This document shows positions 11,054 through 29,592 of a DNA stretch of 32,007 nt, piece by piece. Position numbers and translations under genes: made by a program. Below the pieces are notes generated by a model. That model saw nothing but the letters and a program-made list of their open reading frames with translations. It was not told where the DNA came from and made no database searches. Source of the stretch: Clostridia bacterium (lineage in GTDB: Bacteria > Bacillota > Clostridia > Oscillospirales > CAG-272); assembly GCA_017450885.1 (NCBI GenBank), contig JAFSSR010000019.1, forward strand, positions 1 through 32,007. The letters are read 5' to 3'. Each line of letters opens with the position of its first letter. The first letter of the stretch is position 1.

Positions 11054-12364
11054 ATGGTCGAAGTAACGGCGGTCGAAAAGGGGTCTCCCGCGTCCCGCGC
11101 GGGGCTTCTCCCCGGGGATTATATCATCTCGATAGACGGGCACGAGATAAACGACGTGCTCGACTACCGGTATTATCTCACTCCGCGCGCGGTCAAGCTG
11201 AAGATACACCGCGGCCCGGAGCTTTTTGACGTTACGGTACATAAGGAGGAGTACGCGGACATAGGTCTCGGATTTTCGAGCTACCTTATGGACCGGAGCC
11301 GGACCTGCCGCAACAACTGCATTTTCTGCTTTATCGACCAAAACCCGCCGGGAATGCGCGACACCGTGTATTTTAAAGACGACGACTCGCGTATGTCCTT
11401 CCTCACGGGGAGCTACATAACGCTTACAAATCTGTCGGACAAGGACGTCGATCGCATAATCGAAATGAAGATGTCGCCGGTCAACGTCTCGGTCCACACG
11501 ACCGACCCGGCTCTGCGCTGCGAGATGATGAAAAACCGCTTCGCGGGCGACTCGCTCCGGCATATGTACCGTATGGCGGAGGCGGGGACAGAGCTCCATT
11601 GTCAGATCGTGCTCTGCCGCGGGATAAACGACGGCGCGGCGCTCGACCGCACCATATCCGATCTCGCCGCGCTCGCCCCGGCGGTCAAAAGCGTCTCCGT
11701 GGTGCCGGCGGGACTGACGAAGCACCGCGCCGGGCTCTATCCGCTGACTCCGTTCACCCCGGAGGAATGCGGAGCGGTCATCGCGCAGGTCGACGCGGCG
11801 AGGGAGAAGTGCAGGGCGGCTCACGGGAGCGGGATCTTCTGCTGTTCGGACGAATTTTACCTCAAAGCGGGGATACCCCTGCCGGACGCGGACTACTATG
11901 AAGATTACCCGCAGCTCGAAAACGGGGTCGGAATGATCCGCTCGATGGGCGACGAGTTCCGCCGTGCGGTCGAATTTGCCGGCGAGGATTTCGACCTTTC
12001 AAAAAAGCGCCGCTGCTCGGTCGCCACGGGGCACGCGGCGTACGGTTTCATAAAGTCGCTCGCCGACGAGCTTTGCCGTATTTCTCCCGCGCTCGAGATG
12101 AACGTCTACCGTATAGACAACGAGTTTTTCGGCCCCGAGATAACCGTGGCGGGACTTGTGACCGGCGGAGATCTTATCAGCCAGCTGAAAGGCAGAGAGC
12201 TGGGCGATAGGCTTTTTATCCCGAGCGTCATGCTCAGATACGAAAACGACCTCTTCCTCGACGACGTCAGTCTCGAAGACGCCGAGAGGGAGCTGGGAGT
12301 AAAGATAGTATACGTTAACAACGACGGATACGAATTCGTCAACGCGATATTAGGAGGTGACTGA
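11054..12364 (+). CDS. DUF512 family radical-SAM-like protein with PDZ domain
   Basis: A 436-residue protein of the DUF512 family. Residues ~1-65 form a PDZ-like domain (VEKGSPASRAGLLPGDYIIS). An iron-sulfur cluster motif follows, C85-x3-C89-x2-C92 (CRNNCIFCFIDQNPPGMR), as in radical SAM enzymes. The C-terminal part has family motifs ATGHAAYGF and FFGPEITVAGLVTGGDL. The reaction is unknown. The start is the ATG at 11054 with only a weak GAG upstream. It ends one base before the der start and shares the AGGAGG region used by der. The order DUF512-der-plsY recurs in Clostridia, hinting at ribosome or envelope housekeeping. Confidence 0.88.
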   Translation: MVEVTAVEKGSPASRAGLLPGDYIISIDGHEINDVLDYRYYLTPRAVKLKIHRGPELFDVTVHKEEYADIGLGFSSYLMDRSRTCRNNCIFCFIDQNPPGMRDTVYFKDDDSRMSFLTGSYITLTNLSDKDVDRIIEMKMSPVNVSVHTTDPALRCEMMKNRFAGDSLRHMYRMAEAGTELHCQIVLCRGINDGAALDRTISDLAALAPAVKSVSVVPAGLTKHRAGLYPLTPFTPEECGAVIAQVDAAREKCRAAHGSGIFCCSDEFYLKAGIPLPDADYYEDYPQLENGVGMIRSMGDEFRRAVEFAGEDFDLSKKRRCSVATGHAAYGFIKSLADELCRISPALEMNVYRIDNEFFGPEITVAGLVTGGDLISQLKGRELGDRLFIPSVMLRYENDLFLDDVSLEDAERELGVKIVYVNNDGYEFVNAILGGD

Positions 12365-22238: not shown

Positions 22239-22278
22239 ACGGACTGCCGCGCAAGCGGCAGTCCGTTTTTTGTTTTTT
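22239..22278. terminator. Bidirectional terminator between the ABC operon and the minus-strand module
   Basis: A perfect 12-base stem ACGGACTGCCGC (22239-22250) with GCGGCAGTCCGT (22255-22266), loop GCAA, followed on the plus strand by TTTTTTG. Read from the other strand the same stem is followed by GTGTTTTTT, so it also serves the minus-strand genes ending at 22298. Confidence 0.9.
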
Positions 22279-22297: not shown

Positions 22298-22678
22298 TCA
22301 TTGTATTCTTGTATACTCAAACCCGTCGAAGATCAACTTATCGCCTTTGAATTCATAATCGTAAACAGAGGTGTCTTCGACCCCTTCGATGGTGATCATC
22401 GTTTGCTCGATTTGGGTATCATTTAATATCTTATATGTAAATTCGAACACAGTACCGGAGTTATCTATAAAACGTCCTTTCCCATCTTCTTCAAAAACAC
22501 ATCTTGTTGTATTTCCATTAAAAGTCATCTCCCATGTTCCCAACAATTTTTTCTCTGTTTCGAAAAAAGGACTGTTGGAAGAAACCGATTTACTGTCATC
22601 GGCTTTTTCAATGGTTGAGCTGCAAGAGCAAAAAACAAACAACATAGAGATCAGAAAAATGCAAAAAAGACGTTTCAT
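22298..22678 (-). CDS. Small lipoprotein with lipocalin-like domain
   Basis: A 126-residue predicted lipoprotein. The signal peptide (MKRLFCIFLISMLFVFCSC) has C19 as the likely lipidated cysteine, although the lipobox (FCSC) is not ideal. After a Ser/Lys linker, a compact beta-rich domain begins LLGTWEMTFNG and continues as FEEDGKGRFI and YDYEFKGDKLIF, resembling small lipocalin-like domains (DUF5640 type) in clostridial proteins. An AAAAGGG site precedes the ATG. It is the last of four minus-strand genes led by a sigma factor, so it may be a target or sensor part of that module. The function is unknown. Confidence 0.75.
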   Translation of the reverse strand: MKRLFCIFLISMLFVFCSCSSTIEKADDSKSVSSNSPFFETEKKLLGTWEMTFNGNTTRCVFEEDGKGRFIDNSGTVFEFTYKILNDTQIEQTMITIEGVEDTSVYDYEFKGDKLIFDGFEYTRIQ

Positions 22679-22713
22679 ATTGAGTTTCCCTTTTCTATAG
22701 AAAATATGAATAA

Positions 22714-23112
22714 TTAATTACAACAATAGATTCTATCTGAACTAATTAAAGTTCTGATTTCGTATCCGCAAACAGAACATGTTTTTACTGAGTATGTTTT
22801 TTTCAGACAACGCGGGGCAGTTGTGTAATATCTATGAGTTGTTGTTGTTGTAGTTGAATTAACATATGAATGCCCATAAATATTACAATACGATCCATTG
22901 ATGTGTGCTTGGCCATCGTTTCCATATACGATACGGTGAGCTATGCCATAAGCGAAATCCTCAGTGATTTCTTCTTCTGACGATATGTTTATTTCCAGTC
23001 CGTCGATGAAGAAATCATATGAGTAATCATCTTCGGCAAATACATTATTACTGATTATGGTTACAATACAAATGGCGATTACTAAAACGAATGATATTTT
23101 TTTCATGATCAT
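22714..23112 (-). CDS. Small secreted Cys- and Thr-rich protein
   Basis: A 132-residue predicted exported protein. The signal peptide is clear, with likely cleavage after NNVFA (about residue 26). The mature part has an acidic start (EDDYSYDF), then GSYCNIYGHSY, a run of six Thr (residues ~86-91) and a C-terminal cluster with CLKK, CSVCGYE and a terminal CCN. The Cys/His pattern suggests a metal site or disulfides. The first ATG (23112) overlaps the previous stop by four bases (ATGA); a second ATG at 23106 is also possible. I do not recognise a named family. Confidence 0.7.
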   Translation of the reverse strand: MIMKKISFVLVIAICIVTIISNNVFAEDDYSYDFFIDGLEINISSEEEITEDFAYGIAHRIVYGNDGQAHINGSYCNIYGHSYVNSTTTTTTHRYYTTAPRCLKKTYSVKTCSVCGYEIRTLISSDRIYCCN

Positions 23113-23951
23113 AATTCCTTTACATTTTTAATGAAGTGAATTATATCATCTTTATTACCGGAGCTTATTATATACACATTGTCGCCTATTCTCGCTAAAG
23201 CTTGATAACCGATCTCACTTTCCATTATGAAAAACGAATTGTTGTTTTCGGTTTCAATTCTCTCATATTCACAAGAATTGACTTCCTCCTGCGTCGGGCG
23301 ATCACAATTAATGTAAACCGTATAATTGATTTGTACATTGTTGTATGTATAATCAATAAAAACAGCAGGGTCGCTTTTCAGAGGGCTATAGAATATGTTA
23401 GCTATCTGTCTTTCGTTATTGTTTCCTGGACATACTATCGGAACGTCAATTGCAGATCTAAGCTCTTCAATTGAATCGAATTGTTGAAGCTCAGAAGAAA
23501 TGGTCATCTCATAATTGCCGATCCGGCGGGATTCACCGTCTTTCCATTCGAGCTTTTCTCTCGGATCTTTGAAGAATAACGAGAATATATCAGTAAATGC
23601 ATTTACTGCAATTCCGGCAATAAGGATGGATATAATCGCAGCAATGATCGCTATTTTGATTTTTTCGGGTATTTTCTTTTTTGCTTTGCTTTTCTTTATT
23701 TCGGGGGAAAAGTCTTTGTGAAGATCATTATATTTCTCAACGACCGCGGCTTTTAAAGCCTGCTTTTTTTCCTCTGAAATAATAAACCTTTTGTCAATTT
23801 GAGGAGCGAGATCGACACACGTTTTGATCGCTTCCACGTTGATATGCTCTTTTGACTTTGTCATTTCAAAGTTGACAATATAAAACAAGGTGGAAAGAAT
23901 ACTTATTTTGCCGTTCTGACCGCCGCATGTGCTGCGCTCGTCCACTTTCAT
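23109..23951 (-). CDS. Single-pass membrane protein, putative anti-sigma factor
   Basis: A 280-residue protein with a cytoplasmic N-terminal part (residues 1-97, with a basic KKSKAKKKIPEKIKI stretch), one membrane helix (~98-118) and an extracellular C-terminal domain (~130-280, beta-rich). It starts 36 bases after the sigma factor gene with a strong AAGGAGG site. This topology and position match ECF anti-sigma factors, although no zinc-binding HxxxCxxC motif was seen. The outer domain resembles DUF4367-type sensor domains (NYEMTISSEL, DPAVFIDYTYNN, then NNSFFIMESEIGYQAL). The anti-sigma role is an inference from context. Confidence 0.65.
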   Translation of the reverse strand: MKVDERSTCGGQNGKISILSTLFYIVNFEMTKSKEHINVEAIKTCVDLAPQIDKRFIISEEKKQALKAAVVEKYNDLHKDFSPEIKKSKAKKKIPEKIKIAIIAAIISILIAGIAVNAFTDIFSLFFKDPREKLEWKDGESRRIGNYEMTISSELQQFDSIEELRSAIDVPIVCPGNNNERQIANIFYSPLKSDPAVFIDYTYNNVQINYTVYINCDRPTQEEVNSCEYERIETENNNSFFIMESEIGYQALARIGDNVYIISSGNKDDIIHFIKNVKEL

Positions 23952-23987
23952 CGCCTCCTTTTTACTGTTTTTTGCATCAAAAAATGA

Positions 23988-24611
23988 TCACAGATCCTCT
24001 TTGTATAACAAGATCAAAAGCAGACGTATCGTAAAAAACAAATACGCGAGTCCGGACAGATCGAGGGCGTCGGCCTTCAAAACGACCTGTTTTTTTATCT
24101 TGTCTCTCAGCCTTTTCGCTTTGGTCGACACATCGGTATATGAGACGGAATACAAATTAACGATATCGTTGTAAGAACGTCCGTTTTCAAATAAATCATT
24201 ATATAACGATCTTTCTTCTTCGGTCAATGAAGATAATATCTCGTCCTTTGCTTTTTCCAATAATTCGGGATCAACTTGAAAGTATTCGTCATAGGTCGCC
24301 AAGTCGGGAAAAACGGAACTCGGATCGTCGAACGATATTACCTGCTTTCCTCCTCTTTGCTTTTCCTCCGCTCTGAAGAAGTCGATGATCTTCCGCCTCG
24401 ACACTTCGAACAGCCATGCTCCGATATGACGTTTATCTAATTCATCCCATTTTTGCGCTAACAGCAGGAAGACGTTTTGTGTGATATCATAAGCGTCTTC
24501 TTCCGAAAATCTTACGAGGAAAAGAGCGTTTCTCCAAATAGCGTCATAGTATTTTTCGACCGTCTCTTCCAAAGAAAGCCCGGAGTCGTTTGAATACTCT
24601 TTGTTATCCAC
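23988..24611 (-). CDS. ECF-like sigma factor with hydrophobic C-terminal tail
   Basis: A 207-residue sigma-70 family protein. Region 2 spans residues ~14-82 (DAYDITQNVFLLLAQKW, then HIGAWLFEVSRRKIIDFFR), and region 4 spans ~127-176 (LTEEERSLYNDLF, then SYNDIVNLYSVSYTDVSTKAKRL). The odd feature is the end: residues 185-203 are almost wholly hydrophobic (LSGLAYLFFTIRLLLILLY) before KEDL, which could be a membrane helix or amphipathic anchor. I chose the GTG at 24611 with GGAGG seven bases upstream; a longer frame to 24689 would run into the promoter. The gene after it encodes a likely anti-sigma factor. Confidence 0.82.
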   Translation of the reverse strand: MDNKEYSNDSGLSLEETVEKYYDAIWRNALFLVRFSEEDAYDITQNVFLLLAQKWDELDKRHIGAWLFEVSRRKIIDFFRAEEKQRGGKQVISFDDPSSVFPDLATYDEYFQVDPELLEKAKDEILSSLTEEERSLYNDLFENGRSYNDIVNLYSVSYTDVSTKAKRLRDKIKKQVVLKADALDLSGLAYLFFTIRLLLILLYKEDL

Positions 24612-24642: not shown

Positions 24643-24671
24643 ATTATAACATAGAAAACAGAGTGTTGCAA
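24643..24671 (-). promoter_or_regulatory. Promoter of the sigma factor operon
   Basis: Read on the minus strand: -35 TTGCAA (24671-24666), a 17-base spacer, and -10 TATAAT (24648-24643), about 32 bases before the GTG start. The -35 box lies partly inside the 3' arm of the inverted repeat at 24657-24695. Confidence 0.7.
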
Positions 24672-24695
24672 TAGTTGCCTATACAACACTCTGTT
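24657..24695 (-). terminator. Inverted repeat, likely terminator of the XRE gene
   Basis: Perfect 12-base arms AACAGAGTGTTG (24657-24668) and CAACACTCTGTT (24684-24695) with a 15-base loop. On the minus strand the hairpin follows the XRE gene stop by about 33 bases and is followed by TTC, so the T-run is short and it is a modest terminator. It also overlaps the sigma promoter. Confidence 0.55.
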
Positions 24696-25433: not shown

Positions 25434-26453
25434 ATGATAATTAAAAAAACAAGGCGTATCGTTTTATTTATTGTTTGTTTTTGCTTGTCGGTCGGCTTAT
25501 CGGCGCCTTCTTTCGGATCAAAGGAAAAAGACTCCGCAAACGATCGGGAATTCAACAATCCATTTGTTGACGTGCAAAACGGAAAATGGTATACCGAAGC
25601 TGTTTTGTTCTGTAAAGAACACGGGTATATGAGCGGTACGTCCGCCGAGACTTTTTCTCCCGACGTTATCGCATCGCGTGCCATGCTGATAACTGTTCTT
25701 TGGAGGATAGCCGGTGCTGAAACGGTCGAAGAAAACCTTTTTGAAGACGTTCCGGATACAGCGTGGTACAAAAACGCGGTCAACTGGGCAAAGCGGAATG
25801 GTATAGCTGTTGGCGTTTCCGAAAAGACGTTCGCTCCGAGTGCTCCCGTATCCAGAGAACAACTTGCGCTGATAATGCAGAAATTCCGCCGCTACTTAGA
25901 TTTATCGGTCTCCGGGCGTTCCGAACTCAGATATTTCAGAGATATTGACGCTGTTTCGGGATGGGCATATGATTCGGTAAGATGGGCGGTTTCAAACGGG
26001 ATCCTGACAGGTAAAGACGACCATATTCTCGATCCCAAGGGCGCCGCTGCCCGAGCTGAATTAGCGCAAGTAATATATAAATTCATGACCCTCCCTCCAG
26101 AGGAGGAGGAATGTGAAGATATCCTCGACAAATTCGGAATTCGTCTGACCGCGGAGGCGTTTGTGCAGCCCGGATCGGAATACCATCGCAACAATATCGT
26201 TCTTCATGTTTTAGAAGCCGACCCTGACAGTAATATTAAAATTACCGCATACGTTTCCGGTAACGGTAAAACCGTCGAGGTCGATCTTATGCCGAGCGGA
26301 AGAACGCTCTGGAACACGTATTATACGGGTCTTGAGAAAGTTTTGATCCCCGGGAAAACGGTAGATATTACATTGACCTTTAGAATAGACGGGTATAAAG
26401 GAAACGTATATCTTAAAGAAACCGTTGAAGAAATTGAAATAATTCTTGATTGA
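25434..26453 (+). CDS. Secreted protein with three N-terminal SLH domains
   Basis: A 339-residue surface protein. A signal peptide (basic MIIKKTRR, hydrophobic core, end near SAPSFG) is followed by three SLH domains at residues ~43-92 (FVDVQNGKWY), ~102-155 (FEDVPDTAWY) and ~167-220 (FRDIDAVSGW). An acidic hinge (PPEEEECED) leads to a C-terminal ~110-residue beta-rich domain (IVLHVLEADPDSNIKITAYV, key part IKITAYVSGNG) that may be Ig-like. AAGGAGG precedes the ATG. The protease gene begins 17 bases after the stop, so the two are probably co-transcribed. It may display or anchor a partner at the cell wall; the partner is unknown. Confidence 0.88.
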   Translation: MIIKKTRRIVLFIVCFCLSVGLSAPSFGSKEKDSANDREFNNPFVDVQNGKWYTEAVLFCKEHGYMSGTSAETFSPDVIASRAMLITVLWRIAGAETVEENLFEDVPDTAWYKNAVNWAKRNGIAVGVSEKTFAPSAPVSREQLALIMQKFRRYLDLSVSGRSELRYFRDIDAVSGWAYDSVRWAVSNGILTGKDDHILDPKGAAARAELAQVIYKFMTLPPEEEECEDILDKFGIRLTAEAFVQPGSEYHRNNIVLHVLEADPDSNIKITAYVSGNGKTVEVDLMPSGRTLWNTYYTGLEKVLIPGKTVDITLTFRIDGYKGNVYLKETVEEIEIILD

Positions 26454-26469
26454 AAAATGGAGGTTAATT

Positions 26470-29400
26470 ATGAATATGATGAAAAAACATAGAAAAATAT
26501 ATATGATCGAAAGTTTACTTCTTGTTTGCGTGTTATTATTGAGCATAATACCTTCTCCGGTATTCTCTGATAACAATGTCTGGTACAATGTGTTTCCGGA
26601 AGATGAACACGAAAACAATTATTCTAAAGATGAAGCGGTTATAGTGCTTTCTGATTATGCGCAGTCAGAAATAGGAGAAATATATGGAATCTATTCTGAC
26701 GACTATATTTCAATTAACAGCAATGCCGGGACAACTATTGCAGGATCTCCAGATGCAATAGAAAGTTTATTGGAACTTGATTTCGATGTTTCTGAATTCA
26801 GAGTTCTTAACAAATCGAATGATAGCACCGCGTACAATACTTATTCCATTAGCGATACTGGCAATAATATATGCTTTATTAAATCATCAGAGATAAATGT
26901 GGGCGACATGTTGGAAAAGTTACGTTCAAATGACTATGTTGAAATAGCAGAACCTAACTATAAATATGATCTGCATGCGGTCCCAAATGATCCAGAATAT
27001 GACCTACAGTATGCTTTAGATTTAATAAACGCTGAGGACGCATGGAATATTACAACAGGCAGCAATAGTGTCGTTGTAGGCATAATTGATACAGGAATAC
27101 AAGGCAATCATCCAGATCTCCAAAACCATATTTGGGTAAACAATTACTATAATACAACAACTCAAAGTTGTCAGGCATGCGGAAGAGAAGATGATACAAA
27201 CGGGTATAATTTTTCGGGCTTTGGCAATTTTGGAAATCCGGTTGGAGGATTTCCGACTGATTCAAACGGGCATGGCACTAACGTAGCAGGAATAATTGGT
27301 GCTTGTACTAACAATAATGATGGTATTGCCGGGATAAATTGGAATATTAAGCTTGCATGGCTTGGGGCATATGATGGTAGCGGTCATTTAAGTCTTTACT
27401 CTATTATCGATGCAATTAATTATGCCCAAAATCATAATATCCAATTGATTAACTGCAGTTTTGGATGTTCTCAGTATTCAAAAACGCTATATAAAATGAT
27501 GTCCCTTTATAATGGATTGATTATAGCTTCAACGGGAAAAACAAATATAAATATTGACAATAATCATATTTATCCTGCAGCTTACGACCTTTGGAACATC
27601 GTTAGCGTCACTTCAACCGGGGAGACGAATCAGCTAACTTCTTCCTCACCGTATGGCCCTATAAATGTAGATGTCGCTGCTCCAGGCGATAGTATTTACA
27701 CAACAACAATTTATTCAGAAAATGACTTTGCTTCCGGTACTTCGATGTCTGCTGCGATTGTTACTGGTATTGCTGCACTTATAAAATCTGCAAATCCGAC
27801 ATTCAACTATAAGCAAATAAAGGCGGCTATATGTAATACCGTTCAAAGCATGAACAAAAACTATCAAATCAAGTATGATGGAGGTATAGTCGACGCATAT
27901 GCCGCTTTGCAGGTGACATCGAGCGATTTGTGCAAGATAATACTCTCATATAATTATAGCGGATCTCAAAACAATTACGTTGAATATGTCCCTTATGGTA
28001 GTTCAGCATTAAAAACATACTTTGTTCCATCAAGACCAGGATATGTTTTTAATGGGTGGTATACATCGAGTAATGGAAATACTCTGTTTGATTTTAATAG
28101 TTTAATTACATCTACACAACTATTATACGCTCATTGGGATCAGGTAATCCCTAATTCTTTTGCAGATTTGTTTCCAGATGATAACTTTAGAGATGCTATA
28201 ATCTCTTTACTGAATACTAATGATAATGGAAGCAGACAGCCTAATTCAATAGTATCTTCTTCTGATATCAGTTTTTTAGGAAGTATTGATGAACTTGATG
28301 TTAGTAATCTCGAAATAAACAGTTTAGATGGATTGGAGTATTTTGAGAATCTTGAATCTTTGATTTGTAGTCATAATAATTTAACTAATCTAGATTTAAC
28401 AAATCTTGGCTGGCTGAATACATTAGATTGTAGTTACAATGAATTAACATCATTGGACCTGAGTAGCACTCCAGATATTACTAATATTAACTGCTCTCAT
28501 AATGTAATAAGAAATATTATATACCCTACATATACTAATGGTCCGCATATCCTTATCTGTAACAATAATGAGCTTTCAGCGTTATATGCTAGTTTTGCTT
28601 GGCTTGAAGTTTTGGACTGCAGTTATAATAATCTTATTTATTTAAACATTAACAGTACAAATAGATTGAGGTTTTTAAATTGTTCCAACAATAATTTAAG
28701 CGAATTGAACACCCCGTTATCATTTTGTATCGAATACTTAAATTGCAGTCATAATTTCCTTACGCAAATTGGATTTGGAACAACTGTAATAGAGGGGGAT
28801 TGTTCTTTCAATAATTTAACAAGCATATATATTCCAAGCATAAATGCTATTCAAAGATTGTACTGCAATAACAACAGTTTAACGTTGCTTAATACAACTG
28901 AACTTTCTTCATTATATAGATTGGACATTAGCAAAAACGAACTGAATGATCTAACCGACGTTCTTAGCTCTTTTTGTACTCCATCGATTCAATTATTAAC
29001 ATATAACACTCAGAATGGATGGGAGAATTGTCCGTTTTCAGATATACCTAATGGATATATAAAAGCAATTGAATATGTATATAAACAAGGTTTTATTAGC
29101 GGAACAACACCCACAACATTCTCTCCTAATAATAATGTTACCCGTGCAATGTCTGTCGAAACGTTATATAATATGGCTGGATGCCCTGATGTATCGCAGT
29201 TAACAATTCCATTTAACGATGTTTCTAGCAATGCCAGTTATTATAACGCTGTAAAATGGGCATATAACAATGGAATAACAAGCGGAACTTCTCCCACAAC
29301 GTTCTCCCCTAATAATGGAGTTACGCGAGTTATGATCACAGTAATGCTAAATAAATACGCTCAATATTTATCCTATACACCAAATCTCTACAGAGATTAC

Positions 29401-29592
29401 GAAGTATTTGACGATGAAAGCCAAATCGCGTCATGGGCAAAAACATCAGTTAAAAAAATGTATAAAGCCGGAATTATAAATCCTTATGACGATGGAACAG
29501 GAAATGTCGTTTTTGCTCCATCTGTATCAGTAACAAGAGCAGAATTGGCTTTGTTGGTTCGGAAATTTGATATGATAAGAATTTATAATTAA
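26470..29592 (+). CDS. Subtilisin-like (S8) serine protease with Listeria-Bacteroides repeat, LRR and SLH domains
   Basis: A 1040-residue surface protein. Parts in order: signal peptide (to about VFS, residue 34), a propeptide-like region (~50-180), an S8 catalytic domain (~185-490), a Listeria-Bacteroides (InlB B-type) repeat (~492-557, GYVFNGWYTSSNG), leucine-rich repeats (~600-830, pattern LdCSyNeLTsLDLSs) and three SLH domains (~856-1040). The triad is D207 (GIIDTGI), H268 (NGHGTNVAG) and S425 (SGTSMSAA). At the oxyanion-hole position, where S8 enzymes usually have Asn in AAGN, the sequence is STGK, so K357. The usual PH after GTSMA is AI. It may be weakly active or altered in specificity. 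GGAGG lies six bases before the ATG at 26470. Codon use is very AT-rich compared with flanking genes. The substrate is unknown. Confidence 0.9.
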   Translation: MNMMKKHRKIYMIESLLLVCVLLLSIIPSPVFSDNNVWYNVFPEDEHENNYSKDEAVIVLSDYAQSEIGEIYGIYSDDYISINSNAGTTIAGSPDAIESLLELDFDVSEFRVLNKSNDSTAYNTYSISDTGNNICFIKSSEINVGDMLEKLRSNDYVEIAEPNYKYDLHAVPNDPEYDLQYALDLINAEDAWNITTGSNSVVVGIIDTGIQGNHPDLQNHIWVNNYYNTTTQSCQACGREDDTNGYNFSGFGNFGNPVGGFPTDSNGHGTNVAGIIGACTNNNDGIAGINWNIKLAWLGAYDGSGHLSLYSIIDAINYAQNHNIQLINCSFGCSQYSKTLYKMMSLYNGLIIASTGKTNINIDNNHIYPAAYDLWNIVSVTSTGETNQLTSSSPYGPINVDVAAPGDSIYTTTIYSENDFASGTSMSAAIVTGIAALIKSANPTFNYKQIKAAICNTVQSMNKNYQIKYDGGIVDAYAALQVTSSDLCKIILSYNYSGSQNNYVEYVPYGSSALKTYFVPSRPGYVFNGWYTSSNGNTLFDFNSLITSTQLLYAHWDQVIPNSFADLFPDDNFRDAIISLLNTNDNGSRQPNSIVSSSDISFLGSIDELDVSNLEINSLDGLEYFENLESLICSHNNLTNLDLTNLGWLNTLDCSYNELTSLDLSSTPDITNINCSHNVIRNIIYPTYTNGPHILICNNNELSALYASFAWLEVLDCSYNNLIYLNINSTNRLRFLNCSNNNLSELNTPLSFCIEYLNCSHNFLTQIGFGTTVIEGDCSFNNLTSIYIPSINAIQRLYCNNNSLTLLNTTELSSLYRLDISKNELNDLTDVLSSFCTPSIQLLTYNTQNGWENCPFSDIPNGYIKAIEYVYKQGFISGTTPTTFSPNNNVTRAMSVETLYNMAGCPDVSQLTIPFNDVSSNASYYNAVKWAYNNGITSGTSPTTFSPNNGVTRVMITVMLNKYAQYLSYTPNLYRDYEVFDDESQIASWAKTSVKKMYKAGIINPYDDGTGNVVFAPSVSVTRAELALLVRKFDMIRIYN

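Follow-up and report, generated by a model that had tools for sequence, protein, structure and literature searches.

An ECF sigma factor with a putative C-terminal membrane anchor, encoded beside a probable anti-sigma factor, recurs in related gut bacteria

The 32,007-nucleotide stretch of DNA analysed here (the window) is the whole of contig C66 of a 2.2-Mb draft genome and, as modelled from its sequence, most likely encodes a tail-anchored ECF sigma factor under the control of a separate membrane anti-sigma factor; insertion of the tail, inhibition and proteolytic release are put forward as proposals. To the full reading, a sigma/anti-sigma signalling operon whose ECF sigma factor has its own C-terminal membrane anchor and is freed by intramembrane proteolysis, we give about an even chance. 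About two dozen related gut bacteria share the arrangement, and we therefore take it to be a real variant of a known signalling type, in which a tailed sigma factor next to a separate membrane inhibitor is apparently undescribed. An ECF sigma factor is regarded as a soluble protein if no anti-sigma domain is fused to it. If our reading is correct, a separate anti-sigma factor combined with a minimal anchor on the sigma factor would be one more means of linking the envelope with transcription, and it would raise the question of whether a site-2 protease acts on the sigma factor itself.

The genes lie on the minus strand at 22298-24611, from the GTG start of the sigma gene at 24611 to the stop codon of the lipoprotein gene at 22298, in the order sigma factor, one-pass membrane protein, secreted Cys protein and lipoprotein (Table 1). 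A sequence-only reading of this DNA had described four tightly spaced genes with their own promoter and terminator, and this description stands with exact coordinates; the terminator is bidirectional and common to the four-gene unit and a convergent ABC transporter gene. Gaps of 36 bp (sigma/membrane protein) and 35 bp (Cys/lipoprotein) flank the overlapping middle pair, and the sigma start codon is preceded by a good Shine-Dalgarno sequence (AAAGGAGG at about 24625-24619). Both the HTH gene upstream of the sigma gene and the inverted repeat over the -35 box were absent from that reading.

Table 1. Positions of the module, its signals and the adjoining regulator gene in the window, with the basis of each assignment.
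Feature	Position	Strand	Basis
ECF sigma factor, 207 aa, GTG start	23988..24611	-	Pfam and NCBIfam above cut-offs; sigma2/sigma4 folds
Hydrophobic C-terminal tail, codons 185-203	24003..24059	-	Insertion energy, separate helix, tails in relatives
One-pass membrane protein, 280 aa, probable anti-sigma factor	23109..23951	-	Topology, profiles, predicted structure
Secreted Cys/His/Thr-rich protein, 132 aa	22714..23112	-	Signal peptide; overlaps membrane-protein gene by 4 bp
Lipoprotein-like DUF5640 protein, 126 aa	22298..22678	-	DUF5640 E 2e-7
Xre-type HTH regulator, 107 aa	24728..25051	-	HTH_3 E 2.5e-16; upstream of sigma
Housekeeping-type promoter TTGCAA-N17-TATAAT, extended -10	24643..24671	-	10/12 matches; kept in G015
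Perfect 12-bp inverted repeat AACAGAGTGTTG / CAACACTCTGTT over -35 box	24657..24695	.	Read from sequence
Bidirectional intrinsic terminator	22239..22266	.	Perfect 12-pair stem, T-run on both strands

The ECF-like identity first proposed for the sigma factor is borne out by matches to Pfam Sigma70_r2 (32.2 bits, cut-off 24) and TIGR02937 (51.3, cut-off 42.9, residues 14-175); the protein has regions 2 and 4 without regions 1 or 3 and falls within the ECF length of about 170-210 residues. As also noted earlier, its residues 185-203, ahead of a final KEDL, are nearly all hydrophobic (LSGLAYLFFTIRLLLILLY, with a single Arg inside). The position-dependent calculation gives this segment a predicted insertion energy of -1.45 kcal/mol, a value to be judged against its internal controls, which are -1.8 for the transmembrane (TM) segment of the next protein and 4.1 kcal/mol for the best non-tail segment of the sigma factor. 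AlphaFold2, run with a 21-sequence alignment, makes the tail a helix of its own (187-203) after a break at 183-186, with a block pLDDT of 83-88. On these predictions residues 185-203 form a TM-competent helix. The Lys/Arg-rich end of sigma4 directly precedes the tail and is compatible with a cytoplasmic N side, and the predicted layout is that of a tail-anchored protein, namely a soluble domain, a single C-terminal TM segment and a short end. Counting against anchoring are the Arg within the tail and the tails of several relatives, which have only 11-14 consecutive uncharged residues.

A helix of this kind could also be an ordinary soluble one, packed on the sigma factor's own domains as an internal regulatory lid. 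The fair confidence of AlphaFold2 for the tail would suit such a lid, as would the precedent of ECF41 and ECF42, which are regulated by C-terminal extensions (PMC8999054). These two groups and ECF56 resemble the window protein in having a C-terminal addition on a sigma2-sigma4 core; their extensions, however, are soluble domains of 100-200 residues, unlike the short hydrophobic helix found here. The tail moreover has a low hydrophobic moment and no polar face of the sort expected of a surface-packed helix, the sigma model as a whole reaches a pTM of 0.49, so that the packing of the tail is neither predicted nor settled, and the aligned ECF structures mostly stop at about residue 175-186, ahead of the tail. 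We consider a lid very unlikely.

Tails are also found outside the window. The closest relative found, G015, belongs to another genus of the same family; its sigma factor is 50% identical over residues 4-204, and its genes follow the same order of HTH regulator, sigma factor, membrane protein and Cys protein, without the lipoprotein. At the same place, the G015 sigma factor has a divergent hydrophobic tail of its own (LYGMLYIPFAIYLTMALYTKR), which disposes of the concern that the tail might stem from a recent frameshift in one genome. G003 combines a tailed sigma factor with the membrane and Cys proteins, and G038:C98 has a sigma factor with a short tail and the membrane protein. Many more modules came up in profile searches of the family and order; a single-protein homologue scan of genome and viral contigs confirmed none. 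A search blind to the sigma factor, in which a DNA motif derived solely from the Cys protein was run over 84,980 species genomes, returned 45 stretches, nearly all from herbivore gut Clostridia. In 30 of the 45 the membrane and Cys genes are preceded by a sigma gene, and 17 of these 30 sigma factors (the G015 and G003 loci included) are tailed.

The main count covered 71 non-redundant loci with a sigma gene preceding a homologous membrane-protein gene, a sigma factor being scored as tailed at an insertion energy below 3 kcal/mol. By this measure 27 of the 71 are tailed; 24 of the 27 have values at or below 1.3 kcal/mol, and the rest of the 71 have values of 3.3-8.2. As a control, a tail-containing profile was run over 341 genomes taken from the class and 348 taken from the phylum, and 52 ECF sigma factors were examined: besides the window's own, none (0/51) has a hydrophobic tail, the lowest control value being 3.07 kcal/mol. 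Tail length ranges from about 15 to more than 25 residues, and shorter hydrophobic ends also occur. In the first search, the ECF sigma factors with no recognised partner include a single clearly tailed one (G038:C167), and no intact partner is recognisable downstream of it. The tailed sigma factor of L033 (9036-9710; AISQSFVSLIFLAGLFTYLNSWFFY) is followed by no recognisable membrane partner, and the adjoining reading frame is glycoside hydrolase-like.

On a maximum-likelihood tree built from the sigma cores, with the tails left out, the presence of a tail changes 7 times (4 changes forced by supported branches), compared with 21.6 times when labels are shuffled. One supported clade of 16 divergent sigma factors is tailed throughout (16/16), and the sigma factors of the window and G015 have as their sisters three that lack a full tail (G247, G276 and G297). 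Together these results indicate, at the level of sequence, that the tail is kept within lineages and has been gained or lost more than once; a single clean clade of tailed sigma factors is ruled out by the 7 changes, at least 4 of them forced. Since many modules, even those of sister sigma factors, are tail-less, we regard the tail as a lineage-specific addition. Of the tail and the four-gene order, whose conservation in homologues was to be checked, the tail is conserved in a part of the modules and the order for the recurring trio of sigma, membrane and Cys proteins, but not for the lipoprotein. The result named beforehand as one that would refute tethering, homologues lacking the tail, has in part been obtained: the module does not depend on a tail. 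Tails are recurrent in relatives. All pairs compared give the tail codons a pN/pS of less than 1 (0 to 0.72), as a rule above the sigma4 values, and replacements are mostly among hydrophobic residues, with a high mean hydrophobicity and a low helical moment; the substitution pattern would look like this under selection for a membrane segment. The tail-less sisters would also be expected if the tail were a product of chance or artefact, whether by local frameshift, by read-through or as a functionless random hydrophobic end. Tails with different letters in other genera, however, rule out a frameshift or annotation artefact, their absence from the 51 controls rules out a chance hydrophobic end in the main, and the tail codons are constrained, which leaves such an origin with next to no likelihood.

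The partner protein comprises a helical N-domain (about 18-79), a TM segment (about 98-120) and an alpha/beta ectodomain; in the AlphaFold2 model (mean pLDDT 69) the N-domain consists of three helices and is followed by the TM helix and the alpha/beta ectodomain. Its topology and gene position fit class I (ASD) anti-sigma factors, and the likeness of its N-domain to known anti-sigma factors is weak and co-linear. A Pfam search with the window protein matched no family, DUF4179 included. Among 27 members of the partner family, 6 match DUF4367 (best E 3.6e-14) and 6 give weak matches to DUF4179 (best E 0.011), a domain reported as confined to anti-sigma families, RsiV among them (PMC6066255). 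The partner-family profile also aligns, weakly and co-linearly, with proteins of neighbouring genes in which the zinc-finger anti-sigma Cys pairs are retained; the ZAS motif H-x3-C-x2-C, sought in the N-domain of the window protein, is absent (C9 and C45 are present, with no C-x2-C). The predicted ectodomain shows a borderline resemblance to the C-terminal domain of RseB/MucB (Z 8-9), and sequence searches of solved structures, made with each of the two partner families, gave nothing significant. Because of the DUF4367 and DUF4179 matches, the zinc-finger-type alignment, the predicted topology and the RseB-like ectodomain, we infer that the partner very probably serves as the cognate anti-sigma factor. 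The sequence-only reading had set the sigma factor against ECF sigma factors controlled by a membrane anti-sigma factor; that contrast finds no support, and tethering would add to anti-sigma control, not replace it. Many family members have AxA-like residues at the end of the TM segment (AVNA in the window; matches were counted loosely), which would be compatible with signal-peptidase cleavage at site 1 as in RsiV and RsiP. Both M50 and signal peptidase genes occur in the source genome, as in nearly all bacteria.

No known family was found for the secreted Cys protein, whose residues C76, H81, H93, C102, C112, C115, C130 and C131 are conserved across 22 relatives. Its gene stands next to the membrane-protein gene in many modules, usually abutting or overlapping it, so the cell probably produces both proteins jointly, in keeping with a cell-surface complex. 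Judging from the loci compared, sigma factor, anti-sigma factor and secreted Cys protein are the conserved core of the module, and this apparently unnamed three-gene sensing cassette (sigma factor, DUF4367-type anti-sigma factor, secreted Cys/His protein) recurs in herbivore-gut Clostridia. No homologue of the lipoprotein was found in the other loci gathered at that stage; on gene order it is within the transcription unit but local to the source genome and outside the conserved module. Of the two small exported proteins earlier suggested as parts of the system, the Cys protein is therefore retained and the lipoprotein is not. Three loci (L105, L106 and L108) have no separate Cys gene and a longer membrane protein ending in H..C..C-like motifs. 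A fusion of Cys domain and anti-sigma factor is suggestive there by eye and was set aside, the profile match being not significant (E 0.13 or worse). In L149 (237-2206) and L034 (5770-9207), an Xre-type HTH gene precedes the membrane/Cys pair, no sigma gene is directly upstream, and a sigma gene is on the pair's other side.

We propose that the cytoplasmic helical domain of the anti-sigma factor would hold the sigma factor, and that the sigma tail would insert N-in/C-out, so that both proteins would be held against the membrane from the inside. A signal from the envelope, which the anti-sigma ectodomain may sense in concert with the secreted Cys protein, would lead to site-1 cleavage of the anti-sigma factor (signal-peptidase type) and then to M50 site-2 cleavage. 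The sigma factor itself may be a site-2 substrate, since its tail would leave few residues outside, and the cut would free it for RNA polymerase. This proposal is supported by the TM-like insertion energy, the separate helix and a hydrophobicity kept despite changing letters; by the counts in modules and controls, the all-tailed clade and the sigma-blind search; and by the anti-sigma-like partner together with the M50 and signal peptidase genes. Against it count the many tail-less modules, sister sigma factors included, the one tailed sigma factor without a recognisable partner, and the weak anti-sigma homology and missing Pfam match of the window membrane protein. A stronger version, in which natively tail-anchored sigma factors form a class, sigma and anti-sigma factors being separate membrane proteins and full activation a two-lock switch of site-2 protease cleavage of the tail and anti-sigma loss, is possible and on balance doubtful.

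Without being an independent anchor, the tail might dock on the anti-sigma factor, either on its TM helix or in a cytoplasmic groove, and so make inhibition tighter or more specific. Tailed sigma factors almost always adjoin a membrane partner, and the observed range of tail lengths and the shorter ends suit docking as well as spanning. The partner, however, shows no matching change: no difference in its cytoplasmic length separates tailed from tail-less modules (p 0.24), so that a length compensating for the tail is rejected as well, and one tailed sigma factor has no recognisable partner. Docking is in our view unlikely. Short nonpolar C-termini are known to act as FtsH degrons, and the tail might serve as a hydrophobic degradation signal by which FtsH or a Clp protease destroys free sigma factor, with the anti-sigma factor covering it when bound. 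Such a signal would tolerate the drift in length and sequence that is seen; a few residues would suffice for it, yet most tails reach TM-like insertion energies. Our literature search on hydrophobic degrons found no paper. We hold a degradation signal to be quite unlikely.

Membrane-bound ECF sigma factors are known as anti-sigma fusions (IutY/ECF243, ECF48, ECF52, ECF53 and some ECF36), and for IutY proteolytic release was shown (PMC8999054). In these fusions, and putatively in the window, the sigma factor is held to the membrane through a part of its own chain, and by analogy the window system may work similarly. Its sigma factor is nevertheless outside the definition of an ECF fusion, because the anti-sigma-like protein is a separate gene product and a tail of only about 25 residues follows region 4. 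SigV/RsiV and SigP/RsiP of Firmicutes (PMC6066255, PMC8844934) likewise pair a sigma factor with a one-pass anti-sigma factor that has an extracellular sensor; their cleavage by signal peptidase at site 1 and RasP at site 2 is a plausible model for the window system. DUF4179, the anti-sigma domain by which an ECF30/RsiV-type system is recognised, is weakly matched among relatives. Unlike them, the window system has a DUF4367-like partner ectodomain, a downstream secreted Cys protein and a sigma tail. With SigE/RseA/RseB of E. coli and AlgU/MucA/MucB it shares the logic of sigma factor, membrane anti-sigma factor and exported partner; it differs in that the predicted RseB-like fold is inside the anti-sigma factor, a small Cys/His protein serves as exported partner and the sigma factor is tailed. 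We found no paper on a tail- or membrane-anchored ECF sigma factor with a separate anti-sigma factor in a literature search that excluded the 2021 ECF reclassification, where a prior mention is possible.

Judged by eye, the regions upstream of 19 tailed sigma genes hold mostly housekeeping-type TTGACA/TATAAT promoters and no obvious ECF-type autoregulatory promoter. This points to control that is probably post-translational, not autoregulatory, and to an operon read, we infer, by the main sigma factor. The inverted repeat over the -35 box is a candidate operator or possibly the terminator of the HTH gene; it may be an operator of the upstream Xre-type regulator because TTGCAACACTC is also present in G015 (L031, about 12165-12195). 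An HTH gene is found upstream in 6 of the 63 modules with enough upstream sequence: G015 has one upstream of its sigma gene, and four tail-less modules have distant homologues that directly abut or overlap the sigma gene. Upstream of the HTH gene in the window, and transcribed away from it, is a gene for a surface protein with S-layer-homology-like repeats (25434-26453); its G015 counterpart (L031, 10098-11360) is likewise upstream of the HTH gene and transcribed away, and such a surface gene is possibly linked to the module. At 26446-29592 the window has a gene for a 1048-aa protein that is subtilisin-type-protease-like and continues into leucine-rich-like and S-layer-homology-like repeats.
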